In this document: piece after piece, positions 1,040 through 27,600 of the stretch | How positions within the stretch are numbered: position 1 is the first letter of the stretch | Layout: every line of letters begins with the position of its first letter | NCBI RefSeq assembly: GCF_021155765.1 | Contig: NC_060115.1 | Location: 8,226,493 to 8,290,492 of the forward strand | Direction: 5' to 3' | Origin: Diprion similis | Lineage: Eukaryota; Arthropoda; Insecta; Hymenoptera; Diprionidae | Length of the DNA: 64,000 nucleotides | Notes under the pieces: generated by a model | The model's database searches: none | Told to the model about the DNA's origin: nothing | The model's input: the letters and a program-made list of their open reading frames with translations, nothing else | Translations under genes and position numbers: made by a program

Positions 1040-4000
1040 ATGGACTGTCACGCTGTTCCCGATAGTTCTTACTGGAGTCCGATGGATGCGACGGGAATAT
1101 CCGGGGGCAGTTCCGGCTCCGGAAGTCCAGGCACTTCGAACACTCCGCCGTGCCTGGAGGAGCTCGGCATAGCCGATCCTCCCGCGGCGTTTCACATCCA
1201 CACTTACCACAACCAGAACCATGTCATATCCTCGCACAATCATTACGGGGCTGTCGGGTACCACGACCAGGTCGTCGACGGTCAAATTCGGGAGGACTAC
1301 GCGCCCTGCTCCACATCGGCGGGCCAGGGTTCGTCCTTCAACCTTGAGACCCCGGTGAGACCGGTGAAGAGGAGGAACACTGCAAACAAAAAGGAGAGAC
1401 GACGCACGCAGAGTATAAACAACGCTTTCGCTGACCTCAGAGATTGCATTCCCAACGTCCCAGCCGACACCAAACTCTCCAAAATCAAAACTCTGAGGCT
1501 CGCTTGCTCCTACATCGGATACCTCACCGCCGTCCTGGACAGCGACGAACCTCCGGCTACCTTCAGGGCGGAACTCGTACCCGGCAGCAGACGCTCCAAG
1601 CAATCCGGGGTGAGTTGAACTGTTAACCATGAAATTGGACTTATTGTTAGTAGGAGTGACATTGCGGGACGAAATGATGCGAGGTAAGTGGAACCAGACT
1701 GACACAGCTAAAGTGCAGCTCACTCCGTGCGCTGACTATAGACTGCACAATTTATTCACTGCGTAGATCTTTCGATGGTGAATCGGAATTTTTCGTCGTG
1801 TTACTATTTAGACAAATAATGAATCTGAATAAAGCACAACTTGTTCTTTGAACCATTTCAAAACTACATAGGTACTCTCTGCAGTGCACCAATTACGATA
1901 GATAAACACTGAAACCGGATTCGGATTGGATCGAAATCATTGACCTAAATTTGAATTCGATGTTTAATTTCCGTATCACGTGACTCAAGCTTATACAGCT
2001 ACATATATGATGTTGCAAATGTGGCTAAAGGGACATACGTTTTGCATGATTTTGGAGAACCTTGTAAGCATGCAATACTATTGTTGCAAATTGTTTAAGT
2101 CTCAGCCAGACCGTGATGAAATTGTTTGGTTCTGTACCCCTTGAATTTTCCGCGAACCTTCTATGAGAAATAAGTCAACGCCGAGTTGGTGATAATTCAA
2201 TTAACACCCTACACCGTGCGGAGACGAAAAGAGAGATGGATAAGAGCACTCTTGATTACTCTTCATCGGTGTAGGGTAATATCTCCATCCCTTGGGACCG
2301 CTGCGTGTCCCCTAAAATCGCAATATGTCGCGAAATTCGGAACGCCGGAGTCACTCAGGACCGGAATATCGTCTTATCTTGTTTTCTAATCAAATCCAAT
2401 TATCCCTTATCTTCTTACCGATCTCAACGCATCGCACAATGGCTGTACCAATATCTCAGTCCAGAATCACTAACCATCTTCTGCGCCATAATTGCTCTGA
2501 TTGGAAAGACATCGTTCGATCTATGATTGCAGTTTGACAGAAGAAAGCGAAACAGTTATTCATGGTAGAACGTGAAAGCTTTCGTAAATTTGTTCATACG
2601 CTGGATAAAGTGGATTCCATAATGAATTGCTGCCACGATCTCTTTCACTTTTATAAATACACATGACAGCCAATTCGATTTTTGGTATACATACCTACGA
2701 TAACAATTTTATTATGATGTTCTATCTTTTTCAATAAGGTTCTCTGAAGGGAGAAAAAAAATGAACACTGTTAGCTCGAAATCGTTTATATACGCTTTTA
2801 CAAAGTAGGTAATAACGGAAGAGAGGATAATAGTCAGACAACGAACGTCGGTCAAACGAGGGTGAAAAAAAGGAAAGAAAATGGTAGCTGCTTTGCTGAC
2901 AGCTTGAAAATTACACTGATTATTCGGTACAGTCATTTCGAGTTGTTAAATTAGGGTATACCGCGGGGTCTGTTCAACGCTACTCTTAAAACGTCGTTAG
3001 AGGCCACCAACGCACGGCGGAAGTAGTATGCATCCCTATTGAAATATTTTTCACGTCTGTTATTTCACCCCGTTGCATGTGACCGCATGTATGAACAGAC
3101 GTGTATAAAGTATATCCAATTAATTTTGCCAACATTCGGAACGTGGGTGGTTTTCCATGCTGAAGAGACAACGATTTTTGCATTGAAGAATTTAAAGTAG
3201 ATCAATTCTGCAAAGGTATATTTATATATATACAATTATACGACGTAATAAGTCTGATTCAAAAGATAAGATATCTCTTCGGAAAATGTTCGAAAATACA
3301 AAATGTATATGGATAGAGTAAAATGAACGTATATACATACATATCTACAAAACGTGCCAATCAGCTGCGAACCATTCGCGTAGAGATTAGAAGGTGAAAA
3401 ATAAAAGATGATCCTGATAGGAAGGAAGAAAAAAGTCGTAAAATGTTGGTGTGCATATATTCGAATTAAAACGTGGGAACCGGGTATGTATAACGTTGAA
3501 GCGAACGGAGGCAGCTGTGAGACTTGATTCGTCTTGGGCTCTACGAGAAGCTCGACACTTATTTCAAATACGTGTATAAGCTGTATGGAAAAAAAGTATG
3601 AACCAACCGTTTGTTTGCTTTGATAAGTATTGAAGTCGCGCACTTAGATCTCACTGAAAAACCACTCAATGCATATGGCGTCTTTATTACTACATACCTT
3701 ATATAGTATATTATTTTAGCGGTGCATATCTCGCGCTATATACTTTATACACACCGTTTAGATAATGTTTAACGGATTTATAAATAGCGCAAACTGACGT
3801 TATTCAGCTACGCGCTTGTTTTCACATTTTTCATTATTTATAGGTATGTATATATAAAATTGTTTTTTTTGTTGTTTCGTGTAAAAAACAAACTAATAAA
3901 AAAAGGAATCTCACTTTTCTCAGAAAGCGTCTTGGAATATCGTCAAAATCCTTTCATTTCATAGAAATCTTTCTAATGATGGGTCTTCTGATTTTAAGTA

Positions 4001-11293: not shown

Positions 11294-14200
11294 CTTTTAT
11301 CAAGAATTTATCTTTACACTATATAATACAATACGTAAAATAGCGGATAAAAGTGGGAAAATGACGAAAGGATTGAAACGAATGAGACAAAAAAGGAGTG
11401 AAAAAAATACTGTAGGAAATGATCCATGGACCGGAACTGCACCGTGCAGCAGTGGGCCATGTGGCCATGTGTTTTGGGCGCGAGTCATAACCGTAAAACA
11501 CGAATCACCAACACGAACAGATACCAGGAGGCAGCCACACGCCCAGCGCTCGCTACTATTTCAAGTCTTAACTTTATACTTTACAGCTCAATATTTATTT
11601 ATTCGAGCCTTGAGTTGTTACGACGCGCTTCTCCCCCTGCTTCGTGAATTTACAGTGACTACCCACGAATTTGCTTCGCACTAAAGTTCGAGGATGTTGC
11701 ATATTTTTCGCCGATATTTGGAAGGTGAACCGATTTATTTGGCATTTCTTTTTAGTGCTTTATTCCATCCCCCGATTTCTTTTCCGTATTATCAAATATA
11801 TGAATATGAAATATCTTTCAGCGTGCAATAATTCAACTGGACCAAATAATGCCTTAAATATCTCGAAATACACTGTAGACTTGGTTTTGAGAGAAGATGA
11901 AGATGATTTGAGGGAACATTACATAGCGGAAGTTGAGGCGACCATAAAGCTTCCAACGACTTTATACACATTATACATACATATATCATAGTCGTACCTG
12001 CGAGATCGGGGGTGTACACCATATTATACGCCAGATGTCTTATACGGTGTATTTATTATTTTAAGCTCGATCTTATTTTAAACTGTGGGCTCAGGAAGAT
12101 AATAGTTTTTGCGTTTAAAACTCGGTCTCACAATGTTATTATCTGCGTTAACCTGCACCGCACACCATATCTCCACGACGTATATTACGGATTCATAATT
12201 TTCTGGTACACGTCCGATGGTTCCACAGAATTAACGTCTGCCAATATCGCTTTGGTATTTGTGTAATGTATAATTATGAAAAAATAAAATTTATCCTCGG
12301 ATTAGTCTCGTTTTTTTGGTTTTTATTATATCATTATTGTTATTATTACCATTACTTTTATATTCACAAATGCTATATATATATATATATATATATAGCA
12401 TTTGAGAATATATATATAAGAGAACAGAGCCAGATGCATTAATAGGCGTGTGATTTACCCATCATATAATACCTTGCTATTTATCACTTAAGTATATACT
12501 ACGAGAATTTTCTTTAAAATGCAAATGTTTTTGGATTTTTTTTCTTAGTTACTTCACTTTTTCTTCTTTTTTTTTTAAATACATGTACATACATGCATAT
12601 ATATATATGTATATATGTACACATGTATGTATACGTTTTCTAACTTACATAATAATATTTACATTGTATAATGTCGTTAATCGCATTCAATTAACTGCAA
12701 CGTTATAACAGTCACTCAGAATATGATAAGTAATATGTTTCATAAATCTATATAAGGATCTATTGTTTACTATAATATGTAATATGGGATTATACATTTT
12801 TGGTGTGTATGTACATAAATATATATCGTACATATCATCGATTATTCGGTTATTTATCACTTTAAATCCAATATGTGCCTGTGTACTTATGTGAGTAAAA
12901 TTTTTTTGGCTATCGTTTTTTTATCCCATTTTAGTATGCTAGATTTATACAAGTGGTAGTTTAAATTTATTAGGATTACACGCGTAATTAATCGAAGGTT
13001 AAACTTAACACAAATCATCGCTTAAATGTTTATTGTACAATTTCAAACTGCTTGATAGACCCTGAAATTTTTTTTATCCATCTATTATATTATGCTATGG
13101 TTCAAAATGAATGAGAATACATATTGAAGACTTCGCAATTTTACTTTACGTGTAACGAAAAATCGAACGCTGAAACTTCACACGGGAAATGAAATCTATA
13201 AACGTTTTAATGCCATTTGGATTGCCTTCAAAACAATAAAATCATTATAGGTCTATAACGAGGTGTAGTATACAGAGTTTCAGCTATTTGGGTACATAAC
13301 TCATCTTTCGTAAAATTCGTGGCGCACGATTTCAATTTTCTTTTTTCATTTACCTTCATACATTCTTTTTCAAGTTGTTCGATCTACACGATACTGAATT
13401 TAATAACCATTTCATTCTCGAGGATACAATTGAATTGTAGAATGTTTGTTGTTCCTTTCGCCGAGGATTAACTACTGCATCGTGTATTTGCCCGATATGG
13501 ATTTCTGTAAGCACTGAAGTTTAAAAAAATTCACGGTTTGACATTTCCTTGTATGAATTAAAAGTGTTTCACGTTTGCAATAATATGTATCGTAACTTGT
13601 ATGAATACGTTCAATAATTTTCCTAAAAATCAGGTCACGTATTAACTTATAATGATAGTAGAGTGATCAAAGTTTGAAATTCGAAAAAAATCTAAATTTG
13701 CAGTGAAAACTGCGGTGGTAAACAATCGACAAGAAAGTTATTCATTAAGAACCGATAAGAATTGAGAATGCCAAAGACACAAACGTTGTCAGTTGCAGAA
13801 ATAATACAAAGTAAAATATACGTTATTATAATTATAACTGCAATTATCTAGTAAGACAGATTTTTTGTATCTTGTTTCTGAAAATGTATATTTTATATTT
13901 CACTATCAGTTTTACCAATCGGTCATGTATATTTGAAAATCACAGGGATAAGTATCACTAGCAGTTCATGACACGAGATATAGCGTAACGATAATAATCA
14001 ATTGATATAGCTGCAAACAGAATTTCACGAATGGAATAAAACTCACAAGCATCAAACTTTACTTTTGATCACGTGTACATATAATCACCGAGTGTACGGA
14101 AATTGAATCTTATTGCTTTGTAAGCGCTTTGGAAAAGGTTTATTGTTCTTTTTTTTTTAGAGTGTAAAAAACTCCAGCATCGTAATAATATTGTGTATAG

Positions 14201-17200: not shown

Positions 17201-18651
17201 TTCCACTGATCAATGGCTAGATGTGTAGTTACTAATTAAGTTTTCTTCCTTGTTTTGAAATAATTTTTGTATTTTTTTTCCTATCAATTACGTTTCACCA
17301 CGGTCTTGGAGAAATTTTCGAAAGCAGCAGTCATCATTACAGTATTCGGAAATTATCTGATGCAACTTTTAAAAAAATTTCTTCCTCGATTTTGGGGATA
17401 TTAGTAGCTTTTATGGGAGTGAGTAATAATAAACTAACAATTTGAGACGACTTAGACGACTCAGATTTAACTTAGTTTGTTTTTTCGTGGTTATTTTTGT
17501 CTAATTTTTCTATCTCTATTCAACAGAATTTCATTTTAAAATTCTTTCTGGTGTGCGCACCATAATAATATGAAATTTACACTGGATGACACTGATTAAT
17601 GGGAGGAATATGTTATATGGAACACAGCTGGGTTAAGAGAAAAAGTTTGTATAAAGCAACGGTTTTTGTTCCATTAGTACGATTGTCGTTTTCACATACG
17701 GGATTTTGAAAACGAGACACGATTGACGAAGTTACAATTATCATCGACACAAATCGTTGCAAAACGATCATTCAGTATGGATAGCAAAGATTGCAATATG
17801 TTATAGTGCGCATATATTAAACAGTTAAATATGTGCAAAGTTGTCTATTATATAGTACACGACGAACACGTGACACTAGACAGACGGCGTCAGTAACAAA
17901 AAATAAAGTTTATTTTTGCGAGCAAATACGATTGCAAGCAATATCGGAAGCCCGAAAAATCATATTCTCGTTCCGCTCCTTCAACATCAGTGCGCGTGAT
18001 GCATTTATACATAATTTTTAGTTTCAATTATATTTTCCCATTCATTCATCTATAGAATTTATGCACGCAAAACGTCTATTGAATTAAATCTATAATTATT
18101 CATAGCACTATACTTTGAGTTTTTTTTTTCGTATCTACCCCTTAAATATCTATTACTTTTCGCATTAACGTTATTATCGTTGCCCAAAATTGTTAATAAT
18201 TGTATTAAAATGTTTAAAGGCAGAATATCTGGATCAAAGCATAAAATGTATAAATATCAATGGACTGTTTATCTCACGTTTGTAATAAAAATTATAAACC
18301 ACTTTTTACCGTTTCGACAAAAGGATAAATAAAAATAATAGGGTACTTTATGCAATATAAGCCGTATTTACCTATACAACGATTTCCAAATCGAGATAAA
18401 CCTTATCAACTAAATTACCTCAGAATGCTCTCTACTACGTAAACAAGTTATATAATAATCACCATGACTTCTTGTCAATTTTAATTCCGTCTCAAACTGG
18501 TATAATTATACGGTTTTTGTTGTAAAACGTTTTGTCCCGAAAAGAAAAGACAATAAAATTACCATGTAATTGTTTGGATAATAGAAGTTCCTCAGTCCCT
18601 AGTATCAAGTTTTCTCTTTCTTTGCCGTTCTCCGGCTCCTCGATAAGTCAT
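11294..18651. other. Gene-free stretch between PBAN and Larp1
   Basis: This is about 7.4 kb of AT-rich sequence. There are no convincing ORFs from about 12.3 to 18.6 kb: the few frames above 60 codons are isolated and have no family likeness. PBAN and Larp1 are convergent, so part is probably the 3' UTR of Larp1 (- strand) and part the 3' flank of PBAN. Simple repeats and a palindrome (12367-12404) are present. A (CT)n tract lies near 15301-15318. The length of the Larp1 3' UTR cannot be set from sequence alone. Confidence 0.5.
12367..12404. repeat. Perfect palindrome with a (TA)n core
   Basis: CAAATGC, about 24 nt of TA repeat, then GCATTTG form a 38-bp perfect inverted repeat. A second (TA)n run follows at 12409-12418. 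The sequence could extrude as a cruciform, or simply be a microsatellite that grew inside a short inverted repeat. Confidence 0.85.
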
Positions 18652-21600
18652 TCATTTTTCACTGACTGATGCCGTCTCAGATTTAGAAACGCTGGGCTTA
18701 GACTGCTCAGATTTAACGGACAATCTCGACTGACCTTTAGCTACTTCTTGGGGTCTACTAAAAGAGCCAGAGTTGTGTCGACTTCTGGGTTGTTGCTGTT
18801 TGGTGAGATCACGTTGACTGTTGGATGCAGAGTCGTTTCGTCTTTTGGTACGACCCAATCTACCCGAACCAAAAGATTCTGCCCTATTTCGATACTGCGA
18901 CAGATTTACGGAATCTGACCGTTTGTGATTGTTAGTGTTACCAGAATTGGTAGAAAGTGTCACAGTACTCGAACCACCAGACAACCGTCGTACTCGACTA
19001 GTAGGAGATGCTTCTCCGCCACCAGCACTCTCAGAAACGCTTCTGTTTCTCCTTTTCATCGCTTGGCTTCGTAGATTCCCACTGAATCCTTGGAGCATCT
19101 CGTTTATTTGCGGCTGCAAATTTTCAGACAGTTTCGAATTACTCTTTTATTCTAAACAATTACAGGGAATCACGCTAAATTGCAACCAAGGTTTTCGAAC
19201 GGTTGTTTCTACCGGGTGTCAATGGAAATCTGAACGTTTTTCATTTCTTGAAACATATGTTATGATTTCGAATAAATTAAGCACAGAAACCATGGAGAAT
19301 AAACTGAAAACCTACAAAGAAATGTATCTCATTGTACAGTGGATTGCAAGTGATGAAAACCAAAAGAAAAGCGTAAACCTCAATATGACACATAAAATAG
19401 CTTCGACTACACAATTTGAAAATACCAGATTTGGACAGCTGATGCGACATCGGGGCATCCGACAATGCCAGGTTTCATAAAAACTATACTATACAGGCGA
19501 ATGAATAAAAATTTGACTCACCTCAACTACTCGGAAGTCCTCAATACTTTTGAACTTTGAAAGATACTCCTGTAGTTTGGATTCAACGTGGAGTTTTTCG
19601 GCATGCTTATAGTATTTCATGAATGCCCAAAACTTTTCCAAACCATATAATTGCCCTGAAAAATAAACAATGAAAAATATGAAAAAAAAAATAAATAAAT
19701 AAAAAAACGGATAAGTTAATGTATAAGATCTAATGTATTAATTGATCAAATTCGTTCTTGAATATCAACTCACCAATTTCATAATCTCGTATCGTCTCGG
19801 TTTGAAAATCTTTGTAAAGTTGAGGCCTGAACTTTCTTTCTAAACCGTAGCTGTAGAAACGGAAAAGACATTCTAAACCGTAGCGGTATCCTTCAGCAGC
19901 ATCTTCTAAAGCCAAAGATTTAAATTCTTCGTACATGGTGCGATTGAAGTTCTCTCTGAGGAAGAATGACCAGAAACGGAATAGCGTGTTCATTTCTTGA
20001 GACTGCCCAATTCCCAATCTCTTGCGTTCTATGAATACAAAAGTTACACATGTATATACAGCTAGAAAGACATAGAATTAATTTATTGCCCATAAAATTT
20101 GAAAGATTTCATACCTTTCAAACATCGAGAATGATACTTGTGATAAACTTGCTGAGTGAAACCATTTTCTTTGAGAAGCGAATGACTTGGATGTTGGAAC
20201 GTTGGTAGAGATTGAGGTGCGCTGCCGTAGCTGCTTGCCAAATAGCTTTCGCTTGGACTTGTGCCTGCGCTGCTTCTAAATATTACAAGGTTCAGAGAGG
20301 AAAAAAAAAGAAGGAAGATGTTAGACATGCCTACTGATTTATAATATAAAGTTTTGGGAACTTTTGAAAATATATATTATATCTTGACATAGTTACCCAG
20401 TCGAATAAGTTCTAGGACGATGTTCTCTGACGTCCATAATCCAACCAACGTGATGCTCGACGGGAGGATTACTACTGTGACGCGTTTTACGTTTGCGTGG
20501 TGTTCTAGGATCCACAGCTGCCTCGTCTTTCACTACGGCAAAGAAACGAGATGCCCCACCTCTTCTGCCACCTCTGCTTGTCTGACCAGATCTTTGTACA
20601 TCGTTCCACTGATTTCTATCACCACCTCGTTCACGTTTGCCACGTCCTTCAGGTGTACTTGGAACCTGAATGTTTGAAAAAAACATTTGGTGGCTATATT
20701 CACTATTGCACGAGTGCAATTTCGGACGAAAATTTATCAACAACAGATATTCAATACCTGAGTGGGCAAAGAGTGAGCAACTTCCATATCATCTTCACTT
20801 GTGGTCGGTGGTGGTGGCGGAACTTCAGGGTTGGTTTTTCTTGGAGCTTTAGGTGCCATTTTTTCAAAAGCTTCTTGACTAATCAAATTTACAGTTTTAT
20901 AACTTCCGGTCGAAGATACAGATCCAATCTAAAATAGAGGGTAAGTTGCTAGTAATTTGCTGACTGAATACTTTCATAAGAGATGCAAAAGTTTATTTAC
21001 CCTTTGTCCATCTTCAGTCCATAAATCTTCTTCATAATAATAGAGTCCGTCGTTAATGGCCTGCTCAAGATCTTGCGACATCTTGACACGAGTCGTCCAA
21101 TCACCTGTGCGATCATGTCCTTCGTGTTTGGGAATTCTTGTCGTAATGGCGATTGCCTGGGGATTCGACTGTGTTACGATCAAAAGTTTGTTGATATCAC
21201 GATCCGAAAGCTCGTAATCGTCATCATCTTCAGACCTGTGAAGTGTAGACATTCCTTACTATTAGCGAGTTTTGAGGTAAGATTACACTTAAAAAGTTCA
21301 GTTTCATTGTCAGATACAAATATATCAGCATATTTTTCCTAAGTCGGGAAAAGAAGACAAAATTTGAGTGGATCATCATGTTTTAGAGTGTTTGAATAAT
21401 TGACATATATCTTATTACAGGTACTTACCATTCGGAAAATGCATTATGTCGGCCTGTCGGTGGAGGTGTATCCAATTCTTCGTCAAACTGAAAGTCTAAT
21501 TCTTCGCGTTCTTCTTCTTTGTTATCCGCTAATTTCCCTCTGTCTTCAGGTTTATCTTTTGGGGGTTGTTTCACTCTTCTTCTGACCTACACAATCCAAA

Positions 21601-24600
21601 CGAAGGTATGAGACACAGATGCATAAAATTTTCCAAAATGGGTCGTGACCAAATATCATACTTTGTCTGCATTATAGATAAGCATCGTTACTAGGGTGTT
21701 AATACATCGCTAAGAGTGTGTGTAGAGAGGTCTACTATCAAACCCCACTCATCAGATGGTAATCCTTGTGGTGTTAGCGAATCCTCACAACATAATCTTG
21801 CCCAATTCAAATCATCCGATTACCACAAAATAAATAATCGAAATAGCAAACTGAGCTTATGATGGAATCAATAAAATTATTTCCATCACGACTAAAACTG
21901 CGTCACATACTTACTTCTCTCCAGACGTCATCCATCGATGGCTGATTATCTCCATTCACTTGAAAGGTTGATGATCGAACTGAACTAGATGATATTTTTA
22001 CAGGTTTAACACCGGTATCTGGTAAGGAACTGCTCTGTTTTCGACGTTCTTCTTCTTCTTCCTTAGATCGAACATTTTCTTTCTCATTATTAAGGGACTC
22101 AATTCCCTTGTTTACTACAACGGGCACAAACTCTGGTACGTCAGGGTTCAGACTATCACCTATTGAAGAAGATACGCTATCCGATTCACTGAGTCTCCCA
22201 GGTACAGAATTAGAATTATTGCGTACACGTAAGCTTAGAGGGATCGGTGGTGGAGGAATAGCAGTCAAGGGTTCGGCGACAGGAAAGAAACTAGGATGTG
22301 CAGGCGACGACGATAGCTGCGAAGGAATCTGATGATGATGATGCGCCTGAGGATAAACGGGATTTCCAGCTGCATCTAATATCGGCCATTTCAGAGGCTC
22401 AGTCTTTGTTCTAACCTGAAAGTCAAGAATTTAAAATTTATAACTTTGGGTTTCATAAATAGAGGGGCGAAGAATGCACTAAATTATCAAACAGCATTCA
22501 GAGAGAAGCTGTAAACAGTTGTGCGAAGGTCTACTATCAAACCCCACTCATTGGATTTTTGGTCCTTGTGGTGTTAGCGAATCCTTCAACTTTTATCTGG
22601 CACAATATCGTCATTAAACTAGTATCAAGAATCTAGTAAAATAATTTGATGATAACGTGCCCTGTAGATGTAAAAAAGTATCAAAATGTCAGGTATCTAA
22701 CCTGGAATCCATTAACGAGTTCAAGTTTGTCAGACTCTTTGATAGCCTCGATGACCAAAGCTACGTCAGTGGTAAGTGCTTGTACTCGATGGAACGAAGC
22801 TATAAGAGTAATAGGAAGAAAACCTTCAGCGTCCATTTTACGGCGTAGAAAGAAATCTCTCATCAGATTTTCTTCGCTGAAGTAGTACTCGCTGGAATAT
22901 AGAAAATGCATACAGCCTTAGTATTCGGGTTACAGAAAAACCATTGATTCTGTTTAAAAAACCAAATTTTTCTTCAGATATAGTTTTATCAGCATGTCGA
23001 ATTTCTTTTCTAAGTCGGGAAAAGAAGACAAAATAATATAATATCATCATATACACAATGAATTACAAACTCAATAAAAATCATACTAATACCTACATTA
23101 TTTAATCAGACTTACATTTGTTTTTTAATGTAATCTTTAAGCGTTGTCATATCCAAATTGACATAACTCGTATTGTTGAAGTAGAAAGTACCCATATATG
23201 GCATCATAAACGAGGCATCAGATCCGCCAAACTTATTCACCTGCAATTCAACTCTGATTAACTTCATATCAGCCTCATTTAATACCACTAAATTAGATTT
23301 TCCCACTTTTTATGCCAAATTTCAATATCTACAGTTAATTACATCTATAAATTCGTGTCAACAGCTAGATGTGGCAGAATTCTGATCAGTTTCAGTCCGA
23401 TTACAAGTGCAAATTGTACATTAATTAATCAACTAATCTCAATAAAGGGAACAAAAAATTAACTTTTAAACATATAAGAAATGCCACATACCTGTGTGTA
23501 GTCCGTGGGATAGTCTGGATATTCAGGATCATGCCTAGGCTTAAAACCACCGCGGCTAGCACCACGAGTGCCTCTGCCACCTCTGCCTCTGTATCGAGTA
23601 GTACCGCCCCCTCGTGTGCCTCTATAGCTATACCTGGATCTGTCATAATCCCTGTCTCTCCAATTTTCTTCCTCTGATGATCAGCAAAACGAAATTTTTT
23701 TTCATAAGTCAAGATGAATACTATCATACTTTGAAAATAAACACAAGATTCAATTAAACAAAAGTTTTTACCTTCTCCGTTTCTCTCACGCGGTCCATGA
23801 GTTTTCGGAGATCTCTCTCGCTTCCCTCTGTTCTTTGCCAAATCTATGTCCAGGGGAACCCATTTCTGCTTTGTGACTGAAATTTGATATTAGGAACTAT
23901 TAAATAACTTGACGGATTGTACAAAGAGTGAAGAGCATTTTGTTTTAGTCAATCAACGTAATTGAATAATCTTTCTTTCCTTGTGTCTTCTCTCTTACAA
24001 GTTACTGAGGAATAGCAACCTGAGCGAGTTAATAAACCGTAGAGTTACCTTTTTTCTTTTTATCGCTGCCGTCCGTGTGTTCGTCGCTATCATCTTGGAA
24101 GTGATTTTGTTCTTTGTTTTCTTTGCCTTTGCCTTCGCTGGCTGGACCGGCATGGTTGTCCTTTGATTGGTTCGGTTCGATGACGCCGTTTTGTTTTTGG
24201 GTTGCTATTGCGGGCTTCTTCTAAACCAAAATGGCATAAACTGTACTGCTGATTATCAATAAGATATTAAGATTACCAAATGATATAACAGATTGCGTAC
24301 TGCTTATCGAATTATTGATAAGATGTTAAAATTAATGAATGGAATGATCGGTAATCGTTCAACTGGCATGGGAAATATTCAATAGAACTGAACTGTGGTA
24401 GGTTTTAGAGGCATGTAAGAACACATTTCGTGCCAAGACAATTGTACAAAGCGTTGGCACATGTTTTAGATAAAGGTGTTCTGTGTTAATTTGGCAAAAG
24501 TTCTACACCTACAAATTCGCGTGGAAATCTGTACGCTCTAGCTTTTGCAGGTTTGTTATAGGTGCATTGAAACATATGATGAGATTGAAATTTAGTGTTC

Positions 24601-27600
24601 GTTTTCCAAATTAAGTAATGTTAGGTAAAATTGAGGAAAATATGAAACCCACCTCTCCTTGAGCCCCAAGAGACGGCCAGTCTCCAATGTCGGTAAAATC
24701 ACTTGCCTGAAATATTGAAAAACGTATATATTAAAATACTAACTTAAAGATAATTTAAACAGTGATAAGCCATAGAAGTTAGCGAATAGGATCTAGAAGA
24801 GAGAATGGTGATTTGCTGCGATGACAAACGAGTCAAAGAAATGTTTACATCCAACAATACTCAGGCAAGTTTATTAAACACGTAACTATACAAACACTGC
24901 CAAGGTATTATGGAAATTTCCAAGCCGAGTCTGAGTAGTAAAAACTCCGAGACACAGTGAGGAGTTCATAAATAGATTTACTAAAAATGATTATCACTGC
25001 AGATGGTTTCTGAAGTGGTGAGTGAAATCTGAGAATAAATCACCACGTAGCGAAACTAGGAACGAGAGCCAATCAATTTATCAAAAGAGTGGCAATCAGG
25101 GAAATTCACTTAATCGAAGACAGAACTGATACAGTAATCCCGAGATATTATAATTCAAATTTCTTAACTGATACAGTTGAAAACTTTGCAAAGGCCTGTG
25201 GAATCTGTTAGACTGTAATAATCAATCATTCTAATGAAAATCCTACCTTTTGATTGATTTTTCTTCTATCTTTTGGCGCTTTGACAATCGTTGGCTGCAC
25301 ACCGGTTGAAGGGCCATTTTCTGCAAACAAGAATAAACGAAAAAAATTTATGACCGTCGATAATATTCCCACAAATTTATAACAACAAGTTTACTGAGTG
25401 ACCAATAAGTAACGTAATACTGGCATTAACAATAAGTCTTACAATAAACATTTGATCGGTTAAAAAAACATGTATAAACATTATGTGTATAATGTATTGA
25501 TTAGGAAAGAGTTTCTCGTTATCAACTCCGATTGCTTAACCTTGAAGATAATCGCGTACACACGTACAGATAAATTATAGCATGAAATCGAATGCAATGA
25601 CGGTATTGAAATGGCCTTCTCAATATTCATTCTAATTCTTATATGTATAAGTTCCTGTAAATGTATAAGTGCTCAATTCAACCTGTACAATCAGCAGCAG
25701 CGTCAATGAGAAATGCTAAGTAATTTTTCGCCGAATTTCCGGTTAAAAACTAAATGTGCTACAAGTTCGTCAATTACGATGTGATCAAATATTTAAAATA
25801 CGTGAGAAGTAAGCATTAATTTTCGTATTTCACCGCTAGTTAATTAAAAATAATTACTTTTCAACGGAGACAGCACAGCAAGCTCAGACTATCTGCTTAT
25901 TGTGCGAATACAAATGTACATCATTCAAATTATTAGACGCTGTTCCTGTTCAATCAAAAGAAACTATCGTCTCATTTGTAACTATAACTGCTGGATAAAA
26001 AGGTCATATATTTTTATAATGAAAATAGAGGGAATCGCGTTACCTAGAAGGTATGAAAAAATTTTTTTTTAAATTAAAAAAAAAAAACGCCGAGTACGGA
26101 TATATCATCTCTTGATTGTATAAGTTCGATTTCACATATTACAAATTTAAAGTATGTCCGCTACTTGAATAATGCGTATATAAATTATATATACTTGCCC
26201 ATAGCGCAAATAATAATTATTATTACAAGTGAGAACAATAAGATCATAAAGCAAGAGGCGCAGCATCTTTTCACGTTGTTACGTTACGTTACCGATATAT
26301 TACGCTATTACACTTATTTTTTTTATGAATACAAGAATAAATAAACGTTCCAAGTTGTTTCAGGCCTCGCACCAAATATACCTGGGAAAAATATTATTAG
26401 CTTCGAAAGATTGAAAGGTATGAGAAAATTTGAACGGATGTCAAATTCGAGAAAAACCAAATTCTTCCAAAATATTATTAAATCATTTCGAGAATACCAA
26501 GCCGTGATAATTGAATCTAAAAATGATTATAAGTCAGCAAGAAATTAATGCATAAATTACTTGTCGAAAAAATCTAAAATTTATGCGGGAATTCTTGAAA
26601 ATCGTTTGAAATATGAAAAAGCATTTCCCTGTTGCCCAGAACTGCGCTAGTATTGTATTTAAACAGATATTATAACCACATAAAGAGATTTACTATATAA
26701 TTTACTTAAATTTACTCTACCGCATATGTATAAACGTGAAAAGAAATCCACACTGTATGAATTGAACTGAATAAGAATGTTTATTCAATTAAATTCATTT
26801 ATCAAACGTCGTCAAATTATTATCGTGCATAGATTTCGCAATGCGGACACTGAACGTACGTAATCGTACGATTATCAAAAGATAATTTTCTTTTTCTTCT
26901 CGGCAATGAATGTAACAAAGTTTGCAGCAAAGATGCGACGAAAGCATGAGACTATTTATTCGGGTCGTGGTTTTATAATAGCCTAATAAAATGCCTGCTT
27001 GGCTATACCTGCTCTGTAAAATTCTGGCTATAGACACCATCCAAAAGTGAAAAAGCAAAGGTTTACAATTTTTTCACAAACTGGTTCAAGTCGAAGAAGC
27101 AAGGCAGCTGCAACGATAAGTGGGCACGAAAACGTATAATTTCGAATAAAGTTTCGGCCCTTAAGCATCATATATATTATATACATATATCTGTGTGTGT
27201 GGGTGAAATATGTATAAATTTATATTAAATTTAATTTAAACAATCGTTGAATTTATACAAAGCCCAAGCAAATTATTACGAAATATATTTCGACCTTAGT
27301 TTATTCGGTAAATATTTTTCCTTGAAGATAAAAAAAAAATTATTAAACTTGTCTGCTAAGAAGTAAATGTAAATAAGATTGTATATTATTTACGCCTGCA
27401 TTGTCACACGATTAAACGTATTAATTAATTTTAATTTTGCCAAATCAGGTGTGTATATTATAAATATATGTATATATATAGCGTTTGAATTTTCTTTCTG
27501 ATCATGTACCAATTAAGTAGATTTAATTATAAAATAAAATAGCTGATGTACGCACTGATATTATTTTCAATAAAAAAAAATAATAATAACAACAACAAAA

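Follow-up and report, generated by a model that had tools for sequence, protein, structure and literature searches.

Four snoRNA-like elements in consecutive Larp1 introns of Diprion similis: a probable new home for known guide RNA families

What are the small RNA-like elements that sit, one apiece, in four consecutive introns of a single insect gene, and what would they act on? The question arises from a 64,000-nucleotide (nt) stretch of the Diprion similis genome (contig NC_060115.1, positions 8,226,493 to 8,290,492; hereafter the window), where the gene is Larp1. All features of the gene and of the elements described below lie on the minus strand. An earlier sequence-only reading had taken the four elements for small nucleolar RNAs (snoRNAs) of the C/D and H/ACA classes with paralogous guides. 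The finding looks real, and looks mostly like a new home for guide RNA families that are already known: judged by boxes, guides and structure, the four elements are very probably modification guides duplicated within one host.

Larp1 and its four introns

Splice junctions and one open frame running across five exons show the introns 23115-22892, 22701-22416, 21914-21587 and 21428-21236 to be consecutive; the sequence-only reading numbered them 7 to 10. The first (22892..23115) hosts C/D copy 1, the second (22416..22701) H/ACA copy 1, the third (21587..21914) H/ACA copy 2 and the fourth (21236..21428) C/D copy 2. The first has GT-AG junctions, with the frame open across the splice, and lies where the La motif begins, interrupting the Larp1 frame at KKQ-I-EYYFS; this position may help in comparing species. 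Most of the La motif lies in the exon between the first and second introns (22702..22891), and the exon-joined peptide matches the Pfam La family (PF05383) with an expect value (E) of 1.9e-24. Of five frames scanned, a downstream one matched LARP1_HEAT (PF21071) at E 3.5e-48 and the other four matched no family. The main part of the HEAT region is in an open stretch at 19730..20077, given here as the whole stop-to-stop frame, so that the exon is shorter. Run against the 269-Mb genome, the PF21071 profile found three matching places, all within Larp1. The host gene of the four introns is Larp1.

Each of the four introns holds one RNA element, on the sense strand. The proposed span of the cluster, 21236..23115, is bounded exactly by the 5' end of the first of these introns and the 3' end of the last, and the presence of one snoRNA-like element in each of four consecutive Larp1 introns is borne out by junctions, frame, boxes and Rfam matches. 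The mirror order that had been described (C/D - H/ACA - H/ACA - C/D) is literally true, and no mechanism that would require it was apparent to us. Positions 18000-25500 gave no further snoRNA match with an E better than 1.

Two pairs of elements and their predicted 28S targets

The inner elements, H/ACA copy 1 (22517..22663) and copy 2 (21718..21859), are of SNORA62/SNORA6 type. Both align over all 154 positions of the Rfam model for that family, RF00091, scoring 49.7 and 44.6 bits (E 2.6e-6 and 3.9e-5 for the whole window). Two hairpins, a hinge with an H box (ANANNA) and a 3' ACA are present in both copies, and both halves fold; the H box is AGAUAA at 22598-22593 in copy 1 and AGAUUA at 21798-21793 in copy 2, and the ACA is at 22522-22520 and 21723-21721. 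The two halves of the 3' pocket, AUUCGCUA and UGAUAGUAG (22582-22575 and 22538-22531 in copy 1; 21782-21775 and 21739-21732 in copy 2), are identical between the copies. When the pocket is kept open, the two 3' hairpins fold alike, and its distance from the ACA is 14 or 16 nt in both, depending on the U chosen. The 5' hairpins share 36 identities, which is chance level (mean 33.6 and maximum 41 in 200 shuffles), yet both still fold, at -16.9 and -19.0 kcal/mol. Because the 5' hairpins have diverged to chance and still fold, while the pocket has stayed identical, we read the pair as an old duplication after which selection has acted on fold and guide. Full-length family matches, identical pocket halves and a common 3' fold agree with the proposal that these are paralogous H/ACA RNAs sharing a guide hairpin. 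In the whole genome the two copies were the only RF00091 matches reported, with 38 of 5071 first-look candidates scored. Both also match the ceN58 model RF01645, at 33.9 and 30.6 bits (gathering score 60). By predicted guide and structure the inner pair is SNORA62-type, and not an Rfam-grade member of the family.

Targets were sought in the animal's own ribosomal RNA (rRNA), assembled from the 18S, 5.8S and 5' part of 28S in locus L024 plus 461 nt of 28S from locus L007; the set was 5216 nt long for the H/ACA pocket test and, with slightly wider cuts, 5234 nt for the C/D duplex test. The H/ACA pocket is fully complementary to a 15-mer of the 28S, CUACUAUCUAGCGAA, which occurs once in the set. 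Placements on U7 and on U9 are both fully paired. None of 20000 shuffled pocket pairs matched the rRNA.

The outer elements are C/D copy 1 (22974..23050, 77 nt from C box to D box) and copy 2 (21310..21379, 70 nt). Both carry a C box AUGAUGA (23050-23044 and 21379-21373), a degenerate D' box CUUA (23014-23011 and 21343-21340), a C'-like UGAUA and a D box CUGA (22977-22974 and 21313-21310); the fourth intron holds another CUGA at 21301-21298. From the end of the D box to the 3' splice site there are 82 nt in copy 1 and 74 nt in copy 2. The usual spacing of intronic C/D RNAs from the 3' splice site is about 70-80 nt. The two outer introns share a 25-nt identical block, as the sequence-only reading had said of what it called paralogous C/D RNAs; the boxes are kept and the guide, GUCUUCUUUUCCCG (23016..23029 in copy 1, 21345..21358 in copy 2), is identical. 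The genome contains two exact copies of a 23-nt part of the block and a third place that differs at three positions (a reversed control gave one match). That third place, L011, was rejected, the C box being absent from the stretch examined. When 100 nt from the first C/D intron were searched against the genome, the query itself was the only match. The same reading had held that the surroundings of the elements are not conserved between copies. This stands for the 5' hairpins of the H/ACA pair, at chance level; the 3' flanks of the C/D copies have 46 identities over 88 columns, a count made with no shuffle control.

Against the 28S, the C/D guide of both copies forms a 14-bp duplex with CGGGGAAAGAAGAC, comprising 13 Watson-Crick pairs and one G-U. 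Dinucleotide shuffles of the two elements reached a 14-bp duplex in 0 of 400 and 1 of 400 cases, and among 26 C boxes in the window just these two are followed by an rRNA-complementary 13-mer that starts at most 45 nt downstream. Counted up from D', the fifth nucleotide is opposite the third G of the GGGG in CGGGGAAAGAAGAC. We take this G to be yeast G2395, counting along the conserved stretch in the yeast 25S numbering. The base three before it is a C, like the C2392 that precedes yeast G2395 in a passage of PMC8536666. On this sequence comparison the third G is equated with yeast G2395 and human G3878, the site of snR190, snR107 and SNORD12.

The two predicted target sites lie close together. 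U5, U7 and U9 of CUACUAUCUAGCGAA stand 48, 46 and 44 nt from the third G of CGGGGAAAGAAGAC, and human positions 3830 and 3832 stand 48 and 46 from 3878. Human SNORA62 guides 28S U3830 and U3832, according to passages of PMC2850357, PMC4515611 and PMC6466398; we infer from the spacing to G3878 that CUACUAUCUAGCGAA is the same site. If a single numbering scheme applies, human U3832 is U7, a position that the pocket accommodates; as drawn, the pocket does not accommodate U5. All four guides would then have their targets in a single short part of 28S domain V, leading to helix 73 and near the peptidyl-transferase centre.

Some observations were made along the way on the ribosomal DNA (rDNA) and elsewhere in the window. 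The 28S copy at L007 8300-9165 (contig C34) is interrupted just upstream of TAGCCAAATGCC, where R2 retrotransposons usually insert. Another 28S copy, at about 6450 of L024 (contig C5), ends after GAAGAAATT, upstream of the R2 site, and is followed by unrelated sequence; in this large contig the rDNA unit appears to be truncated or interrupted. At about 1440-1530 of L004 (contig C14) lies a diverged copy resembling 28S, CTACTATCCGGTAAAACC, which looks like an rDNA pseudogene. Sub-threshold matches to microRNA families on both strands of window positions 12360-12643 were set aside as probably simple repeat.

Weighing the readings

Several results weigh against taking the four elements as snoRNA genes. 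Both H/ACA copies fall short of the RF00091 gathering score of 80 bits, and when 4227 Rfam families were run against the window at their gathering scores there were 0 matches. The H/ACA folding energies differ from those of shuffles only moderately (z -2.32 and -1.75), and the C/D copies fold no better than shuffles (z -0.83 and 0.42). Beside the C and D boxes there is no clear terminal stem, only partial and more distant pairings, scored with no control. The 28S sequence used covers only part of the molecule, the rDNA copies being incomplete or interrupted. A 13-mer complementary to rRNA is common, found at 60 window positions, of which 4 are within the C/D elements. The family model is also of little help for the outer pair. 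The best Rfam match in each outer intron is snR107, whose consensus carries a guide nearly equal to that of the C/D copies, at 22.2 bits (E 0.036) for copy 1 and 17.2 bits (E 0.53) for copy 2, with each intron searched alone; both are below the 44-bit cut-off of this fungal Rfam model. A genome search with the model listed three unrelated places, all scoring higher (25.6, 24.8 and 24.2 bits), and did not list the Larp1 elements; at the loose threshold used, 8 of 14 prokaryote controls matched as well. The three genomic places, L027-L029, were rejected, as the guide is absent within two mismatches at all of them. Since the snR107 scores are weak and unspecific, it is guide, boxes and paralogy that support the C/D assignment, which the model match could not sustain by itself.

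Could the elements, then, be a product of chance, with AT-rich introns supplying motifs that resemble those of C/D and H/ACA RNAs, along with short rRNA-like stretches, where there is no RNA gene? Family scores below threshold and the frequency of 13-mer complementarity taken alone would fit this, but we consider it highly improbable: there are two paralogous pairs, their matches to the animal's own rRNA fall at sites known elsewhere, and they are near-unique in the genome. Another possibility is that each pair holds one working guide and that the other copy is a decaying duplicate. Duplicated snoRNAs often decay, and in each pair the copy from the later intron (third or fourth) does score lower against Rfam. 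Yet the guides are identical, the boxes are kept, and the H/ACA 5' hairpins still fold after diverging to chance, so that this explanation seems unlikely.

We give a similarly low probability to the suggestion that the C/D pair shields 28S helix 73 during pre-60S folding, without methylating it. The model for such a role is budding-yeast snR190, whose element above D' is complementary to helix 73, the same stretch, and is a predicted guide for G2395; the G2395 mark is nonetheless absent in budding yeast, snR190 leaving that G unmethylated and acting as a chaperone (passages of PMC8536666). In C/D copy 1, 8 nt, AAUUCGAC (22996-23003), can pair with GUCGGGUU in 28S domain I, using two G-U pairs. 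We presume that GUCGGGUU is near the place where the second antisense element of snR107 would bind. However, the pairing is absent from C/D copy 2 and is within chance, comparable 8-nt pairings in the first 700 nt of 28S numbering 2 for copy 1 and 3 for copy 2; AAUUCGAC may be what is left of the second antisense element seen in the snR190 family, or may reflect chance. Moreover, S. pombe snR107 and human SNORD12C do methylate their G, according to passages of PMC11971394.

The reading that we hold to be strongly favoured is that of four intron-hosted snoRNA genes, forming two duplicate pairs in one host, of SNORA62 type and of snR190/snR107/SNORD12 type, with the 28S targets given above. The SNORA62 model, the box positions, the conservation between paralogs and the complementarity to the animal's own 28S argue for snoRNA genes with paralogous guides, and in this the sequence-only reading, which named no families, is supported. 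Transcription of Larp1 would carry all four RNAs, which would be released from the spliced introns, trimmed to their boxes and assembled with dyskerin or fibrillarin complexes. The predicted product of the H/ACA 3' hairpin is a pseudouridine at U7 (or U9) of CUACUAUCUAGCGAA; 46 (or 44) nt further downstream, the third G in CGGGGAAAGAAGAC would receive a 2'-O-methyl group, guided by the C/D element above the degenerate D'. Both pairs would have arisen by duplication inside Larp1, and the C/D pair may also serve as a folding chaperone, like yeast snR190.

Larp1 as a probable host, and comparison with known systems

Shared transcription makes it reasonable to suppose that the role of Larp1 with terminal oligopyrimidine (TOP) mRNAs may be coupled to rRNA guides. 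A bolder version appears quite doubtful to us: that in this lineage Larp1 holds every copy found of the two guide families, its splicing governing the supply of marks (and possibly of a chaperone like snR190) to the 28S around the peptidyl-transferase region. It is just as doubtful that ribosome maturation would in this way be tied to a gene that controls the translation of ribosomal proteins. If the families are confined to Larp1, altered Larp1 splicing should alter both 28S marks.

Both guide families are already known, as are duplication inside one host and, for SNORA62, a change of host. The new part appears to be Larp1 as host. No report of Larp1 as a snoRNA host was found in the open-licence literature searched, in part among the best matches listed, and a Larp host in the fly may already be annotated; further listings of insect snoRNA papers likewise showed no Larp1 host. 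The word 'larp' is absent from PMC13228274 and PMC4430873 and occurs in PMC6954239 only in a reference, and a passage of PMC4792531 places LARP1B beside a microRNA. The belief that the cluster was undescribed agrees with the matches listed. Larp1 would thus join the list of likely snoRNA hosts, bringing with it two pairs of duplicated guides whose targets are predicted. In humans the two families have different hosts (RPSA and ZFAS1); here they would share one transcript, and the locus is a further case for the question of why snoRNAs settle in translation-linked genes.

Several known systems resemble the two pairs. By a constant numbering offset, we take Drosophila G2703 to be yeast G2395; besides Me28S-G2703c the fly has Me28S-G2703a and b. 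Me28S-G2703c is shown in a figure on Uhg-hosted snoRNAs (PMC4430873, in part); it is like the outer pair in target position, and is linked to Uhg in the fly as against Larp1 here. The nematode H/ACA RNA ceN58 (RF01645) matches both inner elements below its gathering score of 60.

With SNORD12, snR107 and snR190 the outer pair shares a guide almost equal to the snR107 consensus and a target G in helix 73 of domain V. According to passages of PMC11971394, S. pombe snR107 uses the same element to guide Gm2483 and has human SNORD12/B/C as its orthologues, which lie in consecutive ZFAS1 introns and mediate methylation of G3878. The D' box of snR107 is degenerate too (CCUA, against CUUA here). Human SNORD12/B/C likewise comprises several copies in one host, but these occupy consecutive introns, whereas the Larp1 C/D copies are not adjacent. 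Larp1 is protein-coding, unlike ZFAS1, and its C/D pair has little recognisable beyond boxes and guide, with no clear second antisense element; in human that element, directed at domain I, is small.

The inner pair comes closest to SNORA62 (E2) and SNORA6 (ACA6), RF00091, in its full-length match, its H and ACA boxes and its 3' pocket on a conserved 28S stretch. The host differs, being RPSA in human (PMC6466398, in part), FAU in three Suberites sponges (PMC4515611, in part) and Larp1 here; the same passages of PMC4515611 report SNORA62 missing from that FAU intron in a fourth sponge. They also state that SNORA6 probably arose from SNORA62 by cis-duplication, and that the two vertebrate RNAs form a pair in one host, as do the inner elements of Larp1.

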